Program-made: the position numbers and the translations under genes
From: Opitutales bacterium
GTDB taxonomy: Bacteria > Verrucomicrobiota > Verrucomicrobiia > Opitutales > Seribacteraceae
Assembly: GCA_028042835.1 (NCBI GenBank)
Contig: JAOFOL010000002.1
Coordinates: forward strand, 1 to 64,000
Length of the DNA stretch: 64,000 bases
Reading direction: 5' to 3'
Notes under the pieces: model-generated
Databases searched by the model: none
What the model was told of the DNA's origin: nothing
Seen by the model: only the letters and a program-made list of their open reading frames with translations
Shown here: positions 28,074-36,619 of the stretch, in pieces
Layout of the letters: each line of letters begins with the position of its first letter
Position numbering within the stretch: position 1 is the stretch's first letter

Positions 28074-29405
28074 TTGAAGATATACTCGCCCAAGTACAAA
28101 TTTTATCAAAACAAATCGTTCGCTTTCTTTGTGCTAACGATTTGGATTACTCTTTTGTTTCATTCCAAGACTTTTGGGTATGATCCCCTAAAAGAAACCC
28201 TAGCTACCATCCAACAAAAAGCCTTCAATGGAGATGCCTATTTCCAAGGCGTACTTGCCCTTTTTCATAAACATGGTGAGAGAGGAATGACAGTTGACTT
28301 AGAAGAAGCCGCAAGATGGGCTAAGATGTCTGCAGAGAAAAAAGGGGCACTTGGTCTTGCCACATTGGCTGCATTGGAGCTCGAGCAAGGAAATATATCT
28401 AAGGGTAGATTCCTTTATGATGAAGCTTACCTTCATACAAATCTCAGAAAACTTGGAGATAAAAAAGATCCACTCGCCTCATTCTGTTTGGGAATGATGG
28501 AAATTGATAACCCACCGTCTAACATTCCCAAAGCTCTGCGCCACCTGGAGGATGCTGCTGTCGGGGGCTTTCCTGCTGCTCAAGCTACCTTAGGAATGAT
28601 CTATTTCACAGGAATTGGTACCGCTAAAAATTCAGCTCTCGCGATCAAATGGTGCTCAAAAGCATCTAAAGAAAAAGTCCCTCTTGGTATGTTTTACCTT
28701 GGCATGGCTTATTCCGTAGGAGATGGGCTGCCCATGAATGACGAAATAGCAATGAGATGGATCCATGCTGCTGCAAGTAGAGAATTGGCCATGGCACAAT
28801 TAGTTTTAGGGATGAAACTTGCACAGGGAGACGGCATATCGAAAAACCTACCGCTTGCAATACAATGGCTAAGAAGAGCTTCCAAAAAAGGTTCTGCAGA
28901 TGCAGCCTTACAGCTGCGCAGATATGAGAACCTACTCGCTAGATCAGCATCTGCACCAGCTTCGTATAAAGTCCCGAGTCAACAATCCAGCTTGAGACAA
29001 AATATCACTCAATCTATATCCGATGATCTGAACGATAAAAATAAATCAATCGTTGCGTCAAACCAGTCCAATAAAATTAAAAGCATGGCTGAACAGGTTT
29101 ATCAGGAAGAAGAATTATTTGATCCTACGGTCTTTGATGAACCAGCTGATAAAGCATCTTCTTTACTTAATCTAGGTTTGGAAAATTATAAAAGTAGTAA
29201 ATTTATTGACGCAAAATTTTATTTTGAAAAAGCTTCCTCTGAAGATAATGTACAAGCCAATCGGTACCTAGGTATTCTTTATTTCTTAGGTCAAGGTGTA
29301 TCTATCGACTACAAAAAAGCCACTTCTTATTTCGAGATGGCTAAACTAAAAGGCGATCTAGAATCTGCAAGATATCTAAGGATCCTCAAGCAGTTCAAAG
29401 AGTAA
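28074..29405 (+). CDS. Exported Sel1-repeat (TPR-like) protein
   Basis: A 443-residue protein starting with TTG at 28074, with an export signal around residues 14-35. It contains about six Sel1-like repeats in a first block (for example AAQATLGMIYFTGIGTAKNS and AMAQLVLGMKLAQGDGISKN), a polar linker of some 80 residues, and one or two further repeats at the C-terminus (ANRYLGILYFLGQGVSIDYK). Sel1 repeats mediate protein-protein contacts; in the envelope they often serve as adaptors. It is alone on its strand, and a 267-base gap with inverted repeats follows it. Confidence 0.85.
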   Translation: MKIYSPKYKFYQNKSFAFFVLTIWITLLFHSKTFGYDPLKETLATIQQKAFNGDAYFQGVLALFHKHGERGMTVDLEEAARWAKMSAEKKGALGLATLAALELEQGNISKGRFLYDEAYLHTNLRKLGDKKDPLASFCLGMMEIDNPPSNIPKALRHLEDAAVGGFPAAQATLGMIYFTGIGTAKNSALAIKWCSKASKEKVPLGMFYLGMAYSVGDGLPMNDEIAMRWIHAAASRELAMAQLVLGMKLAQGDGISKNLPLAIQWLRRASKKGSADAALQLRRYENLLARSASAPASYKVPSQQSSLRQNITQSISDDLNDKNKSIVASNQSNKIKSMAEQVYQEEELFDPTVFDEPADKASSLLNLGLENYKSSKFIDAKFYFEKASSEDNVQANRYLGILYFLGQGVSIDYKKATSYFEMAKLKGDLESARYLRILKQFKE

Positions 29406-29672: not shown

Positions 29673-32600
29673 CTATTCAGCCCAAGCCGCATCTCTCAAG
29701 TTTAAACTGACTTGATTATTCCCGTTACTCAAATCTACATTCTTGGACCAGACGATACCAACTTGTCCAAGAGTCGATGCACCAACAAGAAAGTACTTTC
29801 CTGCTTTAACATTCTCAATGTTTGCTTCCCCTAGGGAATTGGTCTTAATCCTCAGCATACTTTGATTAGCAAGAGCATTTCGGATGGATGCGGCTGCACC
29901 AGGGAAACGATAGCCTCTCTGAATTGACCTTGCCCAATATTCAGCGTAGGAACCAATACCTTCATTTCCTGGCAATCGAATACCTGCTCCAGCCATAATC
30001 TGATCAAGATCACGATCAACTAAGAAAAATTCTGTAAAGCCAGCAGGACGGTTCCGGTTATTCAAGAACTGTACCTCCACCTTTAAATTTAACATCGCAT
30101 CGCCTTCAGGAATATTTTGTACCCCAGCACTAGAAGACCTGGGTAGGGTCACAGGAGATTGAGTTTGATTAAACGGAGTGAGCGGGGAAGCTTTTTGAAG
30201 ATTAGGAGTACGTGATGACCTAGAAATGGGGGCGAAAGGAACATTTCCTGGGCTTGGTAAATCATTGTTTTCGGACAAAGGCATCGATACTTGAATTGAA
30301 TTTGATGAATTGCCGCCTTGCCTTAATACTCGTATAGCTTCACGTGCACCAATCAAAGCTTTCTCTAGCGACTTCATACGATTACGCGAACTAGCCAATT
30401 CATCATTAAGCAATTCGACTTTCATTGCTGAAGAACGACCACGATCTAAAATCTCCTGCTTAATGTTTCGGGCATCCGCAAGTTCCTTCTTCAGATTGGT
30501 AACTTGAGAGCGTTCTTGATCTAGTTGAACTTGTGCAGACATATTACGCTGGTTTAAGTCCCTAATTTTCTGATCAAGCATAGCTCGGTCTGCATCAGGG
30601 CGATTAGTCATTGATACAAGTTGTGATTGAAGTTTTTGATTTTGAATCCTTAAATTATTTAACTCCGCTATTTGCTCATTCGAAAATGAAGGTGTTGATG
30701 GAATAGTAGGAATTGGAGCGGGCGTAGAAAGACTTGGTATTCTTGATGGAATATTTCTTAATTGAGACTGTGTATTTCTCAATTGCTCCTCGAGCCCATT
30801 TGCACGTTCCTCAGCGAAGGCAAGTTGCTGTTTAACTGCATCGGTATCGTACTTGGATTGTGAATTTTTATCCTGTGCACTTTGAAGATTTCCTTCCAGT
30901 CTGATAATCTGAGCTTTTAAGGCAGCACTATCTGCTGTTAAGCCTGGTATTCCTGCTTGTGCCTGTGCAAGCATTTCACGTAATTCAGCTAGCCGGTTTT
31001 CTTTTACTCCTAACTCCACAGAAAGCTGGGAATTTTCATTGCTAAGGCTATTAATACGATTTTGGAGCGAACTATTTTTCTGATCTGCCTGGCTTTTAGC
31101 GGTCGTAAGCGAAATATCCCTAAGCTTCGCATTTTCATTTTCAAGAGAAGTAACTTGGTCTTTTATCCGACCAAATTCTTCCATAGCATTTTTAAATTCG
31201 ATATTTAATTTTAGAGCATCATCTCTGCTCATATCTAGTTTATTTTGTAATTCGGTCACCTTTGGATCCTCTAAATTTCTAGCATTAAGCAAATCCTCTT
31301 GAAGCAAACGCATGTCATCCTGTAACCCGAGTAGTTCTTCTTTTTTTGCAACGCTTTCAGTTGAATCAACCACGGGTTGTTCGACTAGTTCTTGCTTAAG
31401 TGAAGCAATTTCGATTTGAAGCTCTTGATACCTAGGATCATTTGTAATATCAATTGGAGCAGGTTGTTGATTCTTGGCTTCGTCGAGGAGTCCTTCTGTC
31501 TCTTTTCTTAACTCTTCTGATTTACGCAATGCTGCAGTCAAGTTTTTGATTTTATCAAATGCAGCTGCTTCTGCACCTTTTGCTTTCTGAATGAGTTCTT
31601 CAAATTGGTCAGATTTTGAGTCAGCTAAATTCTTCTCAATATCGTTCATTCTTTTCCTCGTCTCTTCGAGTTCCGCTTCCATTTCAAGTGCTTCGGCTAC
31701 TGCATTCTGTAATTGTTCTCGTAGCGCGGCAACTACCGCATCATCTGGTTTGGGTTGGCTTACATCGCTTTTAGCCTCTTGTAACGCACTTTTTAAATCA
31801 GCAACTTCTTGATTCAATGCATCTACTTCTGCGTTGGATACAGGTGTTGGTTCTTCACGAACTGGAGATGTAGCTTGTATAATTTCAAGCTCAGATTCTT
31901 TTAATGCTAGTTCTTCGATCGCTTTTCCAAGCTGTTCTTTCAGATTATTAATATTTTGATCCTTAGTAGCAATTTCATCTTTTAAACCTGCAACTTCAGA
32001 AGGAATGACATCTGGAATAACACTAGGTTTTACTTTAGACTGGGAAATTAAAGCTATTGCTTTTTCCAAACGCTGTTCAAGTGCGACTCGTCCCTGTTCC
32101 TCTAATTCGTTTTGCTGCCTAAGGGACTCGACTTCAAGTTGAGAGGACACAAGTTGCTCCTCTAAAAGTTGAATCGACTCAGGGCCGACAATGTCGCTCG
32201 GTTCATCAGTTTTTGATTGCGGGTCATCTTTCGCATTTTCTAACATTGCGATTTGTTCACTAGCAGTTTTGAAATCAGATAGAAGTTTTTCTCGTTCCTC
32301 TCGCTCTTCTGCTAATTTTTCTTGAAGATCAACCACAGTTACTTCAGATAAAGCTAATTGGGATTCAAGTTTTTGCATTGCTTCACCATTTAACAAATCT
32401 TGATCAGGATTATCCTCCTTTAGTCCATTCTCCAACTCGGCAAGTCGCATCAAGGAAGTGGTCAACTTTTCTTGTAATGATTTAATCTTCATTTCGTTTT
32501 CACCTCCAGAAGTGCCTGACTGTGCGACTAATTCATCTGCTAACATTTCTTTTTCTGTGATTAAAGTAACGATTTTATTGTTCGCGATATCTAATTTTTC

Positions 32601-35600
32601 AAGAGCACCTGCAAGCTCTCCCTCCAAGGACATTAAAGCCTCATTATCCAATCCCTTAAATTCCTCCGAATTATCGGAGACAGGATCTTGTCCAGCTCTT
32701 TTTTCAACATTGGCCAATTCTTCAATTCGAGCAGACGCTTCTTTCAACTGCTCCTCAAGTTGATCTATCTTCTGAACATATTCCTGAGGAGCATTGTTAA
32801 GATCGGAAGAATCATCATCTTGCAAGTTTTGCAACTTGGTCAGTAACTTCTGACTATCCGATACAGCGTTTTCTTTTTCTTCCAAAGCTATCGCGAGTTC
32901 AGTTTCTACTAACGTAAGTTCCTTAAAGTTTCTTTCATCTACACTTTTTAATTTATCAGCCAACTCGACATTTGCCTTTCGTAATTCCTCAATATCGTCC
33001 GAACCTGCTTGATCTAATTTATCTAATTGAGAAACCGCACTTGCCAGTTCTTTTTCAAGTAGATCTATAGTTCTGGACTTTTCATCCTGCATAGATTCAA
33101 GCTGACCTCGAAGTTCCGCATTTTGTGCATTAGCTTCAAGTAACTCCTCTTCAACGGCAACAACCGCAGTAATGCTTGAATCGTCTGAATTTTCCACTCT
33201 TTTTTGAAGCTTGGAAATTTCTTCCTGAGAGCTCTTAAGATCTTTGTTTAATTGAGCAACCATCTTCTTCCGTTCTAAAGACGCACCTTTGCCCTCCTCA
33301 CGCATAATCATGAGTTCTGCTTCCAAATCAGAAATTTGCCCTACAAGTTTTCCCTTATCAGCTTCAGTCGATTGAATTGTGTTTATTTGAGTGGACATCG
33401 CATCAGCCAACTCAGCTCGTAAATTATCTACTTCTAAATTATATGATTCGGCTTCCTCTAAGCTTTCTTTTAAAATGCGAATGGTACCAAGGGCTTCTTG
33501 TAGTTGAGAAACTGCTTGCCTTGTCTCTACTGACTCCCCCAAACCTGCATTTTTCATTCTCGCAATTTCCTCCCTCGCTTTATCAAGTTCAGATTTAAGA
33601 TCTAAAACTAAGTCTTGAGATTCGTCTGTTTGATTGACTAGATTTTCTTGCTCAGAAAGTAACTTGTTATGCGTTCCCACGAGTTGCTCCTCCAAGTTAG
33701 CAATCTGTAAAGCATCCTCAGCTTGAGTTTTTTCATTTTCTTCGCGTTCGAAGACAAGCTCTACTTTTACTTTATTCAGTTCATCACGCAAAGATAATAC
33801 TACCTCATCCGTGTTGATATTGTTTTTATTTTGCGCACTTTTAGTTTCTTCTAAAACTTGATTAAGATCCTGCAATTGTCCCGCAATAACCTTTACTACT
33901 TCAAGTTCTTCTTTGAGGTTTTGTTTTTCATCTAAAACTAAATTCAACTCCTCATCTTTGCCTTTCAGCTCTAATTCTCTTCTAGATAACTGCTCCAAAG
34001 CTCTTTTCTGACGAAGGACAGCATTATCAAGCTCTATTTTTAATCCATCAATTACATCGGTAGCGCGAGATTGCTCTGATTCAAACCTGGCTGACAATTC
34101 TTGTATGCGAGTTTCTGAATCTTCTAAATTTTGTTCCATTTCGTTGACGAAAGGAATAGCTGGCAATTTGCCCAAGGACGCCTCTCTAAGAGCTTCCTGT
34201 GCCATTTGAGCGTCTTCTTCTAAAGATTGAATCGTGTTGGCAAAATCAAACTCACGCTTGGCCATTTGCTTTTGAGTATCATCAAATTGATTTTTTGTTT
34301 TCACCAGTTCAAGGTTAGAAGACTTCAATTGATCTTCTAGTTCTTGAACTTTTTCGGCTAAAGAGTTTCTTTCTAACCGATTTCCCTCTTTCGCTTTCAT
34401 TACTTCTTTTTTAGCTGCGTTTAAATCTAATAATAATTTGTTCACATAAGCTGGGCTGGCAGATCGCGTAGGCGAATCAGAGGCATCTTCCAGGGAGCTT
34501 TTAAGTTGAAGTAATTGATTCTCTAAATCTTTTTTCTCCCCAAGCTCTACTTGCATTCGAGCAATCTCCCCGAGAGATTTCCTAAGCTCGTCCTGTAAGT
34601 CAAGAAAGTCACGGGAAGAGGCCTCTACAGGAGCAGACTGTGCCATCCTAAGTGCGTTTTTAGTCTGAGAAAGCTCTCTTTCCAATGCCATTAATCTAGC
34701 CGAGTCTACACCGGCATTTGCAACTGTCGAGCGTGCTAAATCAAGTTCCCGCCGTGTTCTTTCCAATTCTGTAGTTATTGATCGGATGTACGAATTCGAT
34801 CTTTCTTGTTCCATCAATAAAGATTGTCTCGATTGCCTGAGGTCAGATCGTGCATTTTCAAGTTCACGCTCTAAACGATTAATTTGGTCACTGATGGATT
34901 TCGCCGACACCCCCTGCCCCGACAAGGTGCCATTTTGAAGTGCACTCTTTGTTCTCTCAAGAGAAGAAACCATTTGTTGAGACTCATCCAAATTATTTTT
35001 CAAAGAGACAATATCACGGTATGCGCGTCTTAATTCAATTTGCATCTGGGCAGTATCTTCGGAGAGTTCAGTTTGGATATTTTTTGATGCAGCAAGTTGA
35101 GATTCAAGTTTACTGATTTGAGAACCATTAGCCCTTTGGGCGGGCATAGGCTTCGTTAAAATATTAGATGTAGCTGAAATAGAAGGACGAAAGCGGTCGG
35201 ACGAAGATAAAGAAACCGCCTCATTTGAACTAATAACTGAAGAAACATTCCTACCAATTGAGGTTCGTGGTGTTGAAACTTCACTTGAAGGTGGTGGTGG
35301 AGTAGTTCTGGATATCAGATCTTCGCTTTCCTTTGCTAGGGATTGCATCCCGAAACTTGCATCTTTACGGGCTGCATCCATGAGTTTGCTTAAAGCACCC
35401 GATTCACTCTCGGTTCGTTCTACAGCTTCTTTCAATACCAATAAAGCAGGTTGAGCTTCTTCATACCTTCCTGCAAAATTATCACTCAGATCCGTCAAAA
35501 TACTTTGAGAATCTTCTACACGCTTAGTAGTTGCCACTATTGATTTGGAAAGCTCTTCTCTTCTTCCAACCCATGCATCTTCAACACCCTTCAGATTAGA

Positions 35601-35903
35601 TCTAAGTCTATCAACCTCAATTTTCGCGTTTGAATCTTGGTTCGATACAGAATCCAAGTTGGATAAAATATTATTCCGTCCGGCTGTCGTGGGGTTATCC
35701 TTTATCTGCGAGTTTAAATCATTAATGATTTTATTTTGCTGATCTAGTTTAGAACTTATCATAGATATCAGCTCATCTGCTGAAACCTTGGCGTTATCCG
35801 ATGTTTGGGCAAGTTGACTAAAGGCAAGTGAAGCAATTCCCACCAAAAATAATGGGATCCCCAACCAGCCTTGTCTAAGTACGGAAAGGCATGAAAATTT
35901 CAT
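29673..35903 (-). CDS. Giant exported coiled-coil protein (2076 residues)
   Basis: The protein starts with a signal peptide or membrane anchor (about 1-30, GIPLFLVGIASLAFSQ). Residues 30-210 are helical; 210-260 are Ser/Pro-rich; about 265-1780 are an almost unbroken coiled coil dense in Leu, Glu, Lys and Gln (typical piece: RLERELENARSDLRQSRQSL). Residues 1790-1930 are again Ser/Pro-rich, and the last 140 residues form a separate domain resembling a transthyretin-like/carboxypeptidase regulatory fold (GEANIENVKAGKYFLVGAST). A fully extended coil of this length would exceed 200 nm. I know no named family. A structural role spanning or lining the envelope is plausible but inferred. A small secreted protein gene is divergent from it. 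Confidence 0.8.
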   Translation of the reverse strand: MKFSCLSVLRQGWLGIPLFLVGIASLAFSQLAQTSDNAKVSADELISMISSKLDQQNKIINDLNSQIKDNPTTAGRNNILSNLDSVSNQDSNAKIEVDRLRSNLKGVEDAWVGRREELSKSIVATTKRVEDSQSILTDLSDNFAGRYEEAQPALLVLKEAVERTESESGALSKLMDAARKDASFGMQSLAKESEDLISRTTPPPPSSEVSTPRTSIGRNVSSVISSNEAVSLSSSDRFRPSISATSNILTKPMPAQRANGSQISKLESQLAASKNIQTELSEDTAQMQIELRRAYRDIVSLKNNLDESQQMVSSLERTKSALQNGTLSGQGVSAKSISDQINRLERELENARSDLRQSRQSLLMEQERSNSYIRSITTELERTRRELDLARSTVANAGVDSARLMALERELSQTKNALRMAQSAPVEASSRDFLDLQDELRKSLGEIARMQVELGEKKDLENQLLQLKSSLEDASDSPTRSASPAYVNKLLLDLNAAKKEVMKAKEGNRLERNSLAEKVQELEDQLKSSNLELVKTKNQFDDTQKQMAKREFDFANTIQSLEEDAQMAQEALREASLGKLPAIPFVNEMEQNLEDSETRIQELSARFESEQSRATDVIDGLKIELDNAVLRQKRALEQLSRRELELKGKDEELNLVLDEKQNLKEELEVVKVIAGQLQDLNQVLEETKSAQNKNNINTDEVVLSLRDELNKVKVELVFEREENEKTQAEDALQIANLEEQLVGTHNKLLSEQENLVNQTDESQDLVLDLKSELDKAREEIARMKNAGLGESVETRQAVSQLQEALGTIRILKESLEEAESYNLEVDNLRAELADAMSTQINTIQSTEADKGKLVGQISDLEAELMIMREEGKGASLERKKMVAQLNKDLKSSQEEISKLQKRVENSDDSSITAVVAVEEELLEANAQNAELRGQLESMQDEKSRTIDLLEKELASAVSQLDKLDQAGSDDIEELRKANVELADKLKSVDERNFKELTLVETELAIALEEKENAVSDSQKLLTKLQNLQDDDSSDLNNAPQEYVQKIDQLEEQLKEASARIEELANVEKRAGQDPVSDNSEEFKGLDNEALMSLEGELAGALEKLDIANNKIVTLITEKEMLADELVAQSGTSGGENEMKIKSLQEKLTTSLMRLAELENGLKEDNPDQDLLNGEAMQKLESQLALSEVTVVDLQEKLAEEREEREKLLSDFKTASEQIAMLENAKDDPQSKTDEPSDIVGPESIQLLEEQLVSSQLEVESLRQQNELEEQGRVALEQRLEKAIALISQSKVKPSVIPDVIPSEVAGLKDEIATKDQNINNLKEQLGKAIEELALKESELEIIQATSPVREEPTPVSNAEVDALNQEVADLKSALQEAKSDVSQPKPDDAVVAALREQLQNAVAEALEMEAELEETRKRMNDIEKNLADSKSDQFEELIQKAKGAEAAAFDKIKNLTAALRKSEELRKETEGLLDEAKNQQPAPIDITNDPRYQELQIEIASLKQELVEQPVVDSTESVAKKEELLGLQDDMRLLQEDLLNARNLEDPKVTELQNKLDMSRDDALKLNIEFKNAMEEFGRIKDQVTSLENENAKLRDISLTTAKSQADQKNSSLQNRINSLSNENSQLSVELGVKENRLAELREMLAQAQAGIPGLTADSAALKAQIIRLEGNLQSAQDKNSQSKYDTDAVKQQLAFAEERANGLEEQLRNTQSQLRNIPSRIPSLSTPAPIPTIPSTPSFSNEQIAELNNLRIQNQKLQSQLVSMTNRPDADRAMLDQKIRDLNQRNMSAQVQLDQERSQVTNLKKELADARNIKQEILDRGRSSAMKVELLNDELASSRNRMKSLEKALIGAREAIRVLRQGGNSSNSIQVSMPLSENNDLPSPGNVPFAPISRSSRTPNLQKASPLTPFNQTQSPVTLPRSSSAGVQNIPEGDAMLNLKVEVQFLNNRNRPAGFTEFFLVDRDLDQIMAGAGIRLPGNEGIGSYAEYWARSIQRGYRFPGAAASIRNALANQSMLRIKTNSLGEANIENVKAGKYFLVGASTLGQVGIVWSKNVDLSNGNNQVSLNLRDAAWAE

Positions 35904-36007: not shown

Positions 36008-36619
36008 ATGAAATCCTGCTTTGCACTGTCACTATTTATTACCTTACTTTGTTTAAACAATGCGATAGCAAGAATTGGAGAAGATCGCTTAAGTATTGAG
36101 AGAAGACTCTTAAAATCAGGAGGGTACCAATACCGCGATGATAAAACCATAGAAAATAGAAAACGTGGAATGCCCTATGTGAAATTTGAAGAATACTTTC
36201 CTAACAAACTAGATCTCCGCATTTACTACAAAACAATTGATGGTAGAAAGCCTTTGTCAAAGGATATTAAACCCTCAGCGATGCTAGAAGGTTGGAATTT
36301 ACACATACTATTTATTCAAGGAAAATCTGCGATTGAAGTGTACAAACGAAGTGAAAAAATTACTGAATTCGAACTCATACACCTATTGAATCTACAAAGT
36401 GGTAATTCTTTTTGGGAAAAGAAAAGCCATAATGATTTGGAGACAGGAAAATTATCTACATTTGGCTTCGAACTTGAAAGAAATGATAAGATGCTAAGAG
36501 CAAAGAAAATCGGTTCAAATGGAGTAATGATTTTCTCTACAATTGTAGATCATCAACTGAAAAAAAATATCCGTGATGAACAGATGGGAGAGGCACCATC
36601 AAGCATCGATGGTTTTTAA
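36008..36619 (+). CDS. Secreted hypothetical protein
   Basis: A 203-residue protein with a clear signal peptide (MKSCFALSLFITLLCLNNAI then A). The mature part contains charged beta-strand-like stretches such as MPYVKFEEYFPNKLDLRIYY and SAIEVYKRSEKITEFELIHL. No cysteine, repeat or catalytic motif is obvious. I do not recognise the family. It is divergent from the giant coiled-coil gene, 104 bases away, and ends 12 bases before the tRNA-Leu gene on the other strand. Confidence 0.65.
   Translation: MKSCFALSLFITLLCLNNAIARIGEDRLSIERRLLKSGGYQYRDDKTIENRKRGMPYVKFEEYFPNKLDLRIYYKTIDGRKPLSKDIKPSAMLEGWNLHILFIQGKSAIEVYKRSEKITEFELIHLLNLQSGNSFWEKKSHNDLETGKLSTFGFELERNDKMLRAKKIGSNGVMIFSTIVDHQLKKNIRDEQMGEAPSSIDGF

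Follow-up and report, generated by a model that had tools for sequence, protein, structure and literature searches.

A predicted exported coiled-coil protein of 2,076 residues with a transthyretin-like C-terminal domain in uncultured marine Verrucomicrobiota

INTRODUCTION

What might a bacterium do with an exported rod several times longer than its periplasm is wide? This question is raised by a single gene, here called gene L, on the minus strand at positions 29673–35903 of a 64,000-nt stretch of DNA (the window; positions 1 to 64,000 of contig JAOFOL010000002.1, GenBank assembly GCA_028042835.1) from an uncultured Opitutales bacterium (Verrucomicrobiota). A preliminary description of the locus had claimed a protein of 2,076 residues with an N-terminal export signal, about 1,500 residues of near-continuous coiled coil and, beyond a hinge rich in Pro and Ser, a terminal transthyretin (TTR)-like domain, and had placed it in a bacterium of the PVC (Planctomycetes–Verrucomicrobia–Chlamydiae) group. 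The analysis presented here leads us, with confidence and doubt in equal measure, to a Sec-exported rod of the cell envelope as the overall explanation.

RESULTS

The open reading frame (ORF) of gene L runs uninterrupted through 2,076 codons, which agrees with the length claimed in the preliminary description and adds the strand, unstated there; plus-strand frame 1 of the same interval is ridden with stops. The gene matches contig G000:C23 of the whole genome at 100% with its frame intact, and its C-terminal domain (C-domain) ends long ORFs in many further assemblies of the same GTDB family, indicating that gene L is not an assembly artefact. Between the window and its closest orthologue, second codon positions of residues 301–950 differ at 5.8% and third positions at 58.6%, from which we conclude that this part is under purifying selection. 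All coordinates of features of L given below are window positions on the minus strand.

The protein is predicted to begin with a Sec-type signal (residues 1–29, MKFSCLSVLRQGWLGIPLFLVGIASLAFS, before Q30; 35817..35903) composed of a positively charged start, a hydrophobic core and an A-[FY]-S end. In 19 of 20 L sequences from the same family, the signal comprises 29 residues, ends in A-[FY]-S and is followed by Gln, the 20th sequence being cut by a contig end. Signals were located by the A-[FY]-S motif, with the last suitable Met before the motif taken as the start by a script rule, so the constant length of 29 residues follows in part from this rule. The mature protein has no membrane-like stretch (top 19-residue mean hydropathy of 0.72–1.39 across the family sequences and 0.97 in the window protein). 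It is also free of Cys in 19 of the 20 family sequences; among the named loci that have a signal, largely from these same genomes, 22 of 23 likewise lack it. Absence of Cys is compatible with export but is also common in coils. The export signal read at the N-terminus in the preliminary description has therefore held up as a conserved prediction.

A COILS-type scan scored 1,319 of the 1,620 residues from 261 to 1880 as coil, compared with a mean of 224 and a maximum of 351 in 30 composition-preserving shuffles (the scoring matrix was re-entered by hand), and the hydrophobic period of this part is 3.52–3.54 residues. The claimed coil thus stands, but its near-continuity does not: the coil is split into 22 segments, the longest of 175 residues. 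An AlphaFold model of residues 256–960 (23 sequences) likewise contains nine helices separated by short joints (mean predicted local distance difference test [pLDDT], 68; predicted template modeling score [pTM], 0.24) and suggests, with low confidence, a jointed rod without a compact fold.

In parallel chains that lie in register, a residue at heptad position g faces the following e′ residue of the partner (+5), while pairs spaced by +3 or +4 can form within one helix. The g-e′(+5) pairs of the window protein are attractive in 35 cases and repulsive in 11, a net value reached by only 2 of 1,000 shuffles. Over 21 sequences, the mean z of this attraction is 3.63, with values above 2 in 20 of the 21; as controls, four other +5 position pairs gave mean z values from −0.43 to 0.38 and e-g(+2) gave 0.47. 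Charge pairing of the parallel, in-register type argues for an extended rod of ~200 nm rather than a hairpin. With a coil rise of 0.1485 nm per residue, 1,319–1,620 residues correspond to 196–240 nm; together, coil extent and charge pairing sustain the earlier proposal of a rod far longer than the width of the periplasm.

The rod is followed by a hinge rich in Pro and Ser (residues 1871–1935; 30099..30293), as had been proposed, with 16.7% Pro and 15% Ser over residues 1881–1940 and 23% identity in 1861–1920. The C-domain itself (residues 1936–2076; 29676..30098) is a TTR/CnaB-like domain with a helical insertion, and the same domain recurs on paralogues (see below). AlphaFold modeled the C-terminal 150 residues (61 sequences) as a beta-sandwich with three inserted helices (pLDDT, 92.7; pTM, 0.87). 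The best Foldseek match was PA1324 (E = 2e-6), followed by Gram-positive pilins, with 15 matches at E ≤ 0.001. VIA-align gave Z values that are all middling: 8.7 for PA1324 (root mean square deviation [rmsd], 4.2; 117 residues), 8.4 for GBS52 (rmsd, 2.6; 91 residues) and about 6.6–7.0 for transthyretin entries. The model and these fold matches substantiate the TTR-like domain of the preliminary description. In Pfam and NCBIfam scans, no family exceeded its cut-off for the C-domain; the window domain reached only 12.5 bits (versus 32.3) for CarboxypepD_reg, the SpaA model matched 13 of 61 domain members below its gathering score (best E = 0.0094), and a profile of the domain found nothing below E = 0.088 among PDB sequences. 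Over the 61 sequences of the 150-residue domain, F33, E62, A65, R82, W126 and four glycines are invariant and W64 is nearly so; the conserved helical insertion holds W-A-R and a Pro-Gly stretch. There are at most four C-domain matches per family genome, and a general secretion-sorting tag is therefore unlikely.

Along the rod, conservation is uneven, and we distinguish three zones. Zone 1 (residues 257–950; 33054..35135) is a conserved, jointed coil of nearly fixed length, in which blocks between residues 301 and 840 are 44–74% identical to the window, with the peak (74%) at 781–840. The most conserved coil block (residues 796–815, QAVSQLQEALGTIRILKESL; 33459..33518; mean column conservation of 0.91 in 19 sequences) lies just after a joint at 786–791 that holds an invariant glycine. 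Zone 2 (residues 951–1560; 31224..33053) is a coil of variable length, a possible spacer, and identity to the window falls to 6–10% at 961–1140, where most sequences are gapped. Zone 3 (residues 1561–1870; 30294..31223) is the conserved end of the rod, as judged from the coil scan, identity and column conservation. Among the 15 pairs with at least 55% identity (out of 190 possible among the 20 family sequences; the pairs overlap), none has an indel between residues 300 and 949, and all 112 non-zero coil indels lie beyond residue 949, mostly in zone 2. Only 12 of these 112 sizes are multiples of 7, and so we rejected a preference for heptad-preserving indels. The 256–960 span measures 704 or 705 aa in 18 of 21 complete sequences, so that its length is almost constant across genera; of the 25 named loci considered, L076 and L080 (cut by contig ends) and L100 (682 aa) and L102 (679 aa), which contain undetermined residues, were excluded. 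By heptad position, conservation is highest in the a/d core, followed by e/g and then b/c/f, an order indicating constraint on coil formation and on the pairing of chains more than on an exposed face.

The window protein also has a charge period of 10.35, the power of which was reached in 13 of 1,000 heptad shuffles. In 12 of 19 sequences (0 of 3 from genera g3/g4), the strongest zone 1 peak is at a period of 10.35–10.40; elsewhere in the rod, the strongest charge peak falls at 10.35–10.45 in 2 of 19. Common descent can account for this agreement; we therefore rejected the long-range period as a sign of lateral packing and retain it as a hint only.

Between signal and rod lie a weakly conserved N-terminal region of the mature protein (residues 30–200; 35304..35816), with 22% identity to the window in residues 61–120 and 39% in 121–180, and a linker recognized by its sequence and Pro positions as rich in Pro and Ser (residues 201–256, TPPPPSSEVSTPR...; 35136..35303). 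Within the former, a Trp at 106–111 is present in 12 of 13 sequences of the window's genus and in none of 6 from other genera.

Gene L is carried by uncultured marine Verrucomicrobiota. All 61 named loci with the C-domain are titled Verrucomicrobia(ota), Opitutia, Opitutae or Opitutales, as expected from the earlier placement in a PVC bacterium, and some of them appear to derive from single-cell genomes. The C-domain occurs in 40 of 42 genomes of the GTDB family, including 14 of 14 good ones. The L type (read from the match table) is present in 33 of the 42 and the L coil in two more (G003 and G007), and neither was found in G005 of the same family (94% complete). Of 177 genomes of the order, 18 carry the C-domain, 15 of these belonging to the window's family; coil segment 660–860 has matches in 12 of the 177, all within the family, and none in family genomes G001, G005 and G010 of this set. 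Wider profile searches gave, besides the window, only weak, distant matches: for the class, in 6 of 383 genomes (one at E = 2.8e-13 and the rest at 1e-6 or weaker) and, for the phylum, in 0 of 386 genomes in one search and 3 of 376 in the other.

Related genomes carry the C-domain on up to three paralogues, namely, the giant rod L, a short coiled-coil lipoprotein (A) and an exported protein (B). A and B comprise about 400 residues each and occur alongside L in most L-bearing family genomes; the genome of the window itself, which is 63% complete, shows L without A or B. The lipoprotein pattern of A (a hydrophobic start ending in Cys) was flagged in 7 of 11 sequences, one at an earlier Cys; of the remainder, three were judged lipoproteins by eye and one is cut. 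A adjoins the same two gene families in 11 of 11 cases, including GTDB families f11 and f18, and in the one case scanned these neighbors encode a DUF1538 protein and a PII-like protein. At L058:4347-8909 (+), as elsewhere across three GTDB families, the genes for A, the DUF1538 protein and the PII-like protein are adjacent, which suggests a functional unit. Divergent beside A in this locus, at L058:1839-4217 (−), is a gene for a 792-aa coiled-coil protein with repeat-like units, no signal by eye and no Pfam match; its neighbor resembles, by eye, a GAF-GAF-PAS-adenylate cyclase. The start of B looks export-like by eye, and its gene adjoins one gene family in 7 of 7 family cases, identified as transketolase in the one scanned. 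In a tree of the C-domain, the L, A and B copies of the family cluster, and none of the three groups is separated by a single branch; the positions of the f11 and f18 sequences, on long branches, are unsure. A second C-domain fragment just downstream of L, at L041:10434-10694 (+), may be a decayed tandem duplicate.

A more distant and still larger relative occurs in f11 (one genome). This protein of 4,462 residues (L053:4355-17743, minus strand) has a hydrophobic start, tetratricopeptide repeats and the same C-domain, and 3,327 of its residues are predicted as coil (about 490 nm; g-e′[+5] z of 3.4); A-like and B-like copies are present in the same genome. By BLAST, its coil and that of the window share one gapped match of 87 columns (33 bits, a score that none of 100 heptad-shuffled copies equaled), a weak and non-collinear similarity in which positions along the two rods do not correspond; in the profile search, most of its score derives from a single stretch containing the C-domain. 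In f18, all three genomes have a distant version of the C-domain, located on short coiled-coil lipoproteins in the two genomes read, and one genome additionally carries an A-like copy, next to the two genes that adjoin A elsewhere.

Regarding its surroundings, L has a complex I (nuo) gene, identified by eye, as a neighbor in 19 of 20 family cases, the 20th being cut by a contig end. The gaps of 211–919 nt, with a divergent gene between L and nuo in 7 of 19 cases, led us to reject an operon with complex I and to regard the arrangement as synteny only. A gene at window positions 36008–36619 (+), divergent from L and present in 7 of 20 family cases, encodes a 203-aa protein with an export-like start and no Pfam family. 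Convergent with L, at 28074–29405 (+), is a gene for a Sel1-repeat protein with a signal-like start, found beside L in 14 of 20. The OmpA domain (PF00691) is present in 36 of 42 family genomes and was not found in the window's own genome; L as a replacement for absent OmpA/Pal anchors is thus not supported.

DISCUSSION

We favor an envelope rod on account of the conserved signal, the absence of a membrane-like stretch from the mature part, the coil score, the +5 attraction, the lack of indels in zone 1 and the shared C-domain. We hold this explanation as a whole with belief and reserve evenly matched; location in the envelope is very probable, and the coil is probably a parallel dimer. Judged from its sequence, L could perhaps work as a lateral structural scaffold or long-range tether of the envelope, a role that we put forward tentatively; a part in cell shape or as a compartment scaffold, suggested in the preliminary description, is conjectural. 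The Sec signal would be cleaved after AFS. With no barrel, transmembrane or lipid anchor seen, the mature protein would then remain periplasmic. Two chains would pair in parallel and in register, and the resulting rod of about 200 nm would have to lie along the envelope, given that the periplasm is only tens of nanometers wide. Zone 1 (about 650 residues or about 97 nm, nearly fixed in length) may be a unit for assembly or partner binding and zone 2 a length-tolerant spacer, while the C-domain, on its flexible Pro/Ser hinge, would dock to a partner in the envelope that also serves A and B; the partner of L is probably common to lipoprotein A.

Several observations weigh against such a rod. The 22 coil segments imply many joints, at which it could fold back on itself, and the AlphaFold model of the coil reaches a mean pLDDT of only 68. 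The variable part is unlikely to be one rigid heptad coil, since its indels are mostly not multiples of 7, and the length of zone 1 is not absolute (spans of 660, 696 and 742 aa for residues 256–960 in 3 of 21 sequences). Within-helix pairs at +3/+4 are raised as well, both c-g(+4) (z = 2.62) and g-c(+3) (3.02) and, further, g-d (1.51), b-f (1.52) and f-b (1.27); the charge test uses registers from the hand-entered matrix and mostly related sequences, and its z values are not independent. A close operon partner is missing, with 211–919 nt between L and the upstream nuo gene in all 19 measurable cases, and a general tether is not missing from the family, given the OmpA-domain anchors in 36 of its 42 genomes.

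The main rival is a surface or released fiber, in which the rod would cross the outer membrane and serve adhesion or spacing with the CnaB/TTR-like domain at its tip. A 200-nm rod is easier to fit outside the cell than within the periplasm, and, besides PA1324, the C-domain resembles CnaB domains of pilins and adhesins in structure; nevertheless, none of 21 sequences has an LPXTG motif, the Pfam scan returned no secretion domain, no transmembrane stretch is seen, and the small number of C-domain matches per genome is unlike that of a general secretion-sorting domain, so that we regard a fiber as somewhat unlikely. Quite unlikely, in our judgment, is a spacer or tether between outer membrane and cell wall similar to SlpA, OmpM and Omp-alpha, with the coil spanning the periplasm and the C-domain bound to wall or outer membrane. 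A long exported coil with a terminal domain would suit this role, as would lipoprotein A, the paralogue that combines this domain with a short coil, but L shows no SLH domain, barrel or transmembrane anchor, its coil far exceeds a normal periplasm, and OmpA-domain proteins are already present.

The same joints that trouble the extended rod, 22 coil segments and nine predicted helices in residues 256–960, would permit a hairpin or bundle folded into a compact periplasmic particle of chaperone or clamp type. The g-e′(+5) attraction is instead that of parallel, in-register chains, and the model (pTM, 0.24) shows no compact fold, with the caveat that AlphaFold is unreliable for coils predicted as monomers; we consider this folding improbable. 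The preliminary description had also named homology to cytoplasmic SMC-like proteins as a possibility that would undo its reading. A cytoplasmic SMC/Rad50-like protein with a mispredicted signal could account for the SMC_prok_B matches, but these are confined to the coil and reach only 47 bits (E = 7.8e-13) against a cut-off of 567; Walker A and LSGG motifs were absent from 21 of 21 sequences in a pattern search, the signal is kept in 19 of 20 family sequences, and the C-domain is TTR-like. The scores below cut-off and the missing ATPase motifs led us to reject this explanation, which we regard as extremely improbable.

Returning to the envelope rod, its most far-reaching form would be a periplasmic cytoskeleton, in which parallel, in-register rods of ~200 nm, located outside the cytoplasmic membrane, associate laterally via zone 1 and are fastened to the outer membrane by C-domains shared with lipoprotein A. 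We consider this form unlikely; if true, it would amount to an intermediate-filament-like layer outside the cytoplasm, and the ~500-nm rod of the 4,462-residue relative would approach the length of a small cell. More generally, if the envelope rod is real, an uncultured marine bacterial family has an extracytoplasmic rod several times the width of the periplasm together with a matching lipoprotein, and whether bacteria hold structural filaments outside the cytoplasmic membrane becomes testable, with a defined set of three proteins to start from. Beyond the preliminary description, the analysis adds the second Pro/Ser linker (201–256), the parallel-type charge pairing, a two-zone rod conserved over 300–950 and variable over 950–1560, the C-domain paralogue set including A and B, and the 4,462-residue relative. 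It also assigns a fold to a domain that lies below the Pfam and NCBIfam cut-offs.

Among the open-licence papers listed by our searches, we recognized no title or abstract opening as describing L or its layout, and comparison with known systems yields partial likenesses. Crescentin is a cytoplasmic protein of about 430 residues with a long parallel coiled coil and a structural role; compared with such intermediate-filament-like proteins, L is predicted to be exported and is about five times longer. SMC and Rad50 share a long coil with L, which differs in its export signal and its lack of ATPase motifs. Deinococcus SlpA, Veillonella OmpM and Thermotoga Omp-alpha are reported as envelope connectors in which a long coiled coil is combined with an SLH domain at the N-terminus and, at the C-terminus, an outer membrane barrel or, in Omp-alpha, a transmembrane helix (PMC9388160, PMC10628300). 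With these connectors, L shares an exported long coiled coil, in its case by prediction only, but its end domain is TTR-like and no SLH domain, barrel or transmembrane helix was found. Specifically, Pfam searches with full-length L and with its N-terminal 300 residues returned no SLH domain at E ≤ 1, the last 150 residues are modeled as the sandwich domain rather than a barrel or transmembrane helix, and the highest 19-residue mean hydropathy anywhere in the mature protein is 0.97; membership of L among these connectors was therefore rejected. The SlpA coil, located between residues about 92 and 253 (PMC9388160), is also much shorter than that of L. CnaB, SpaA and transthyretin folds share the beta-sandwich core of the C-domain, from which L differs by its helical insertion and sub-threshold Pfam scores. 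The best structural match, PA1324 (PDB 3qec and 1xpn; 11–14% sequence identity), is called a lipoprotein and listed as a hypothetical protein in one report (PMC6444534); with 145–170 residues in the solved chains, it is a small protein, unlike the giant L.

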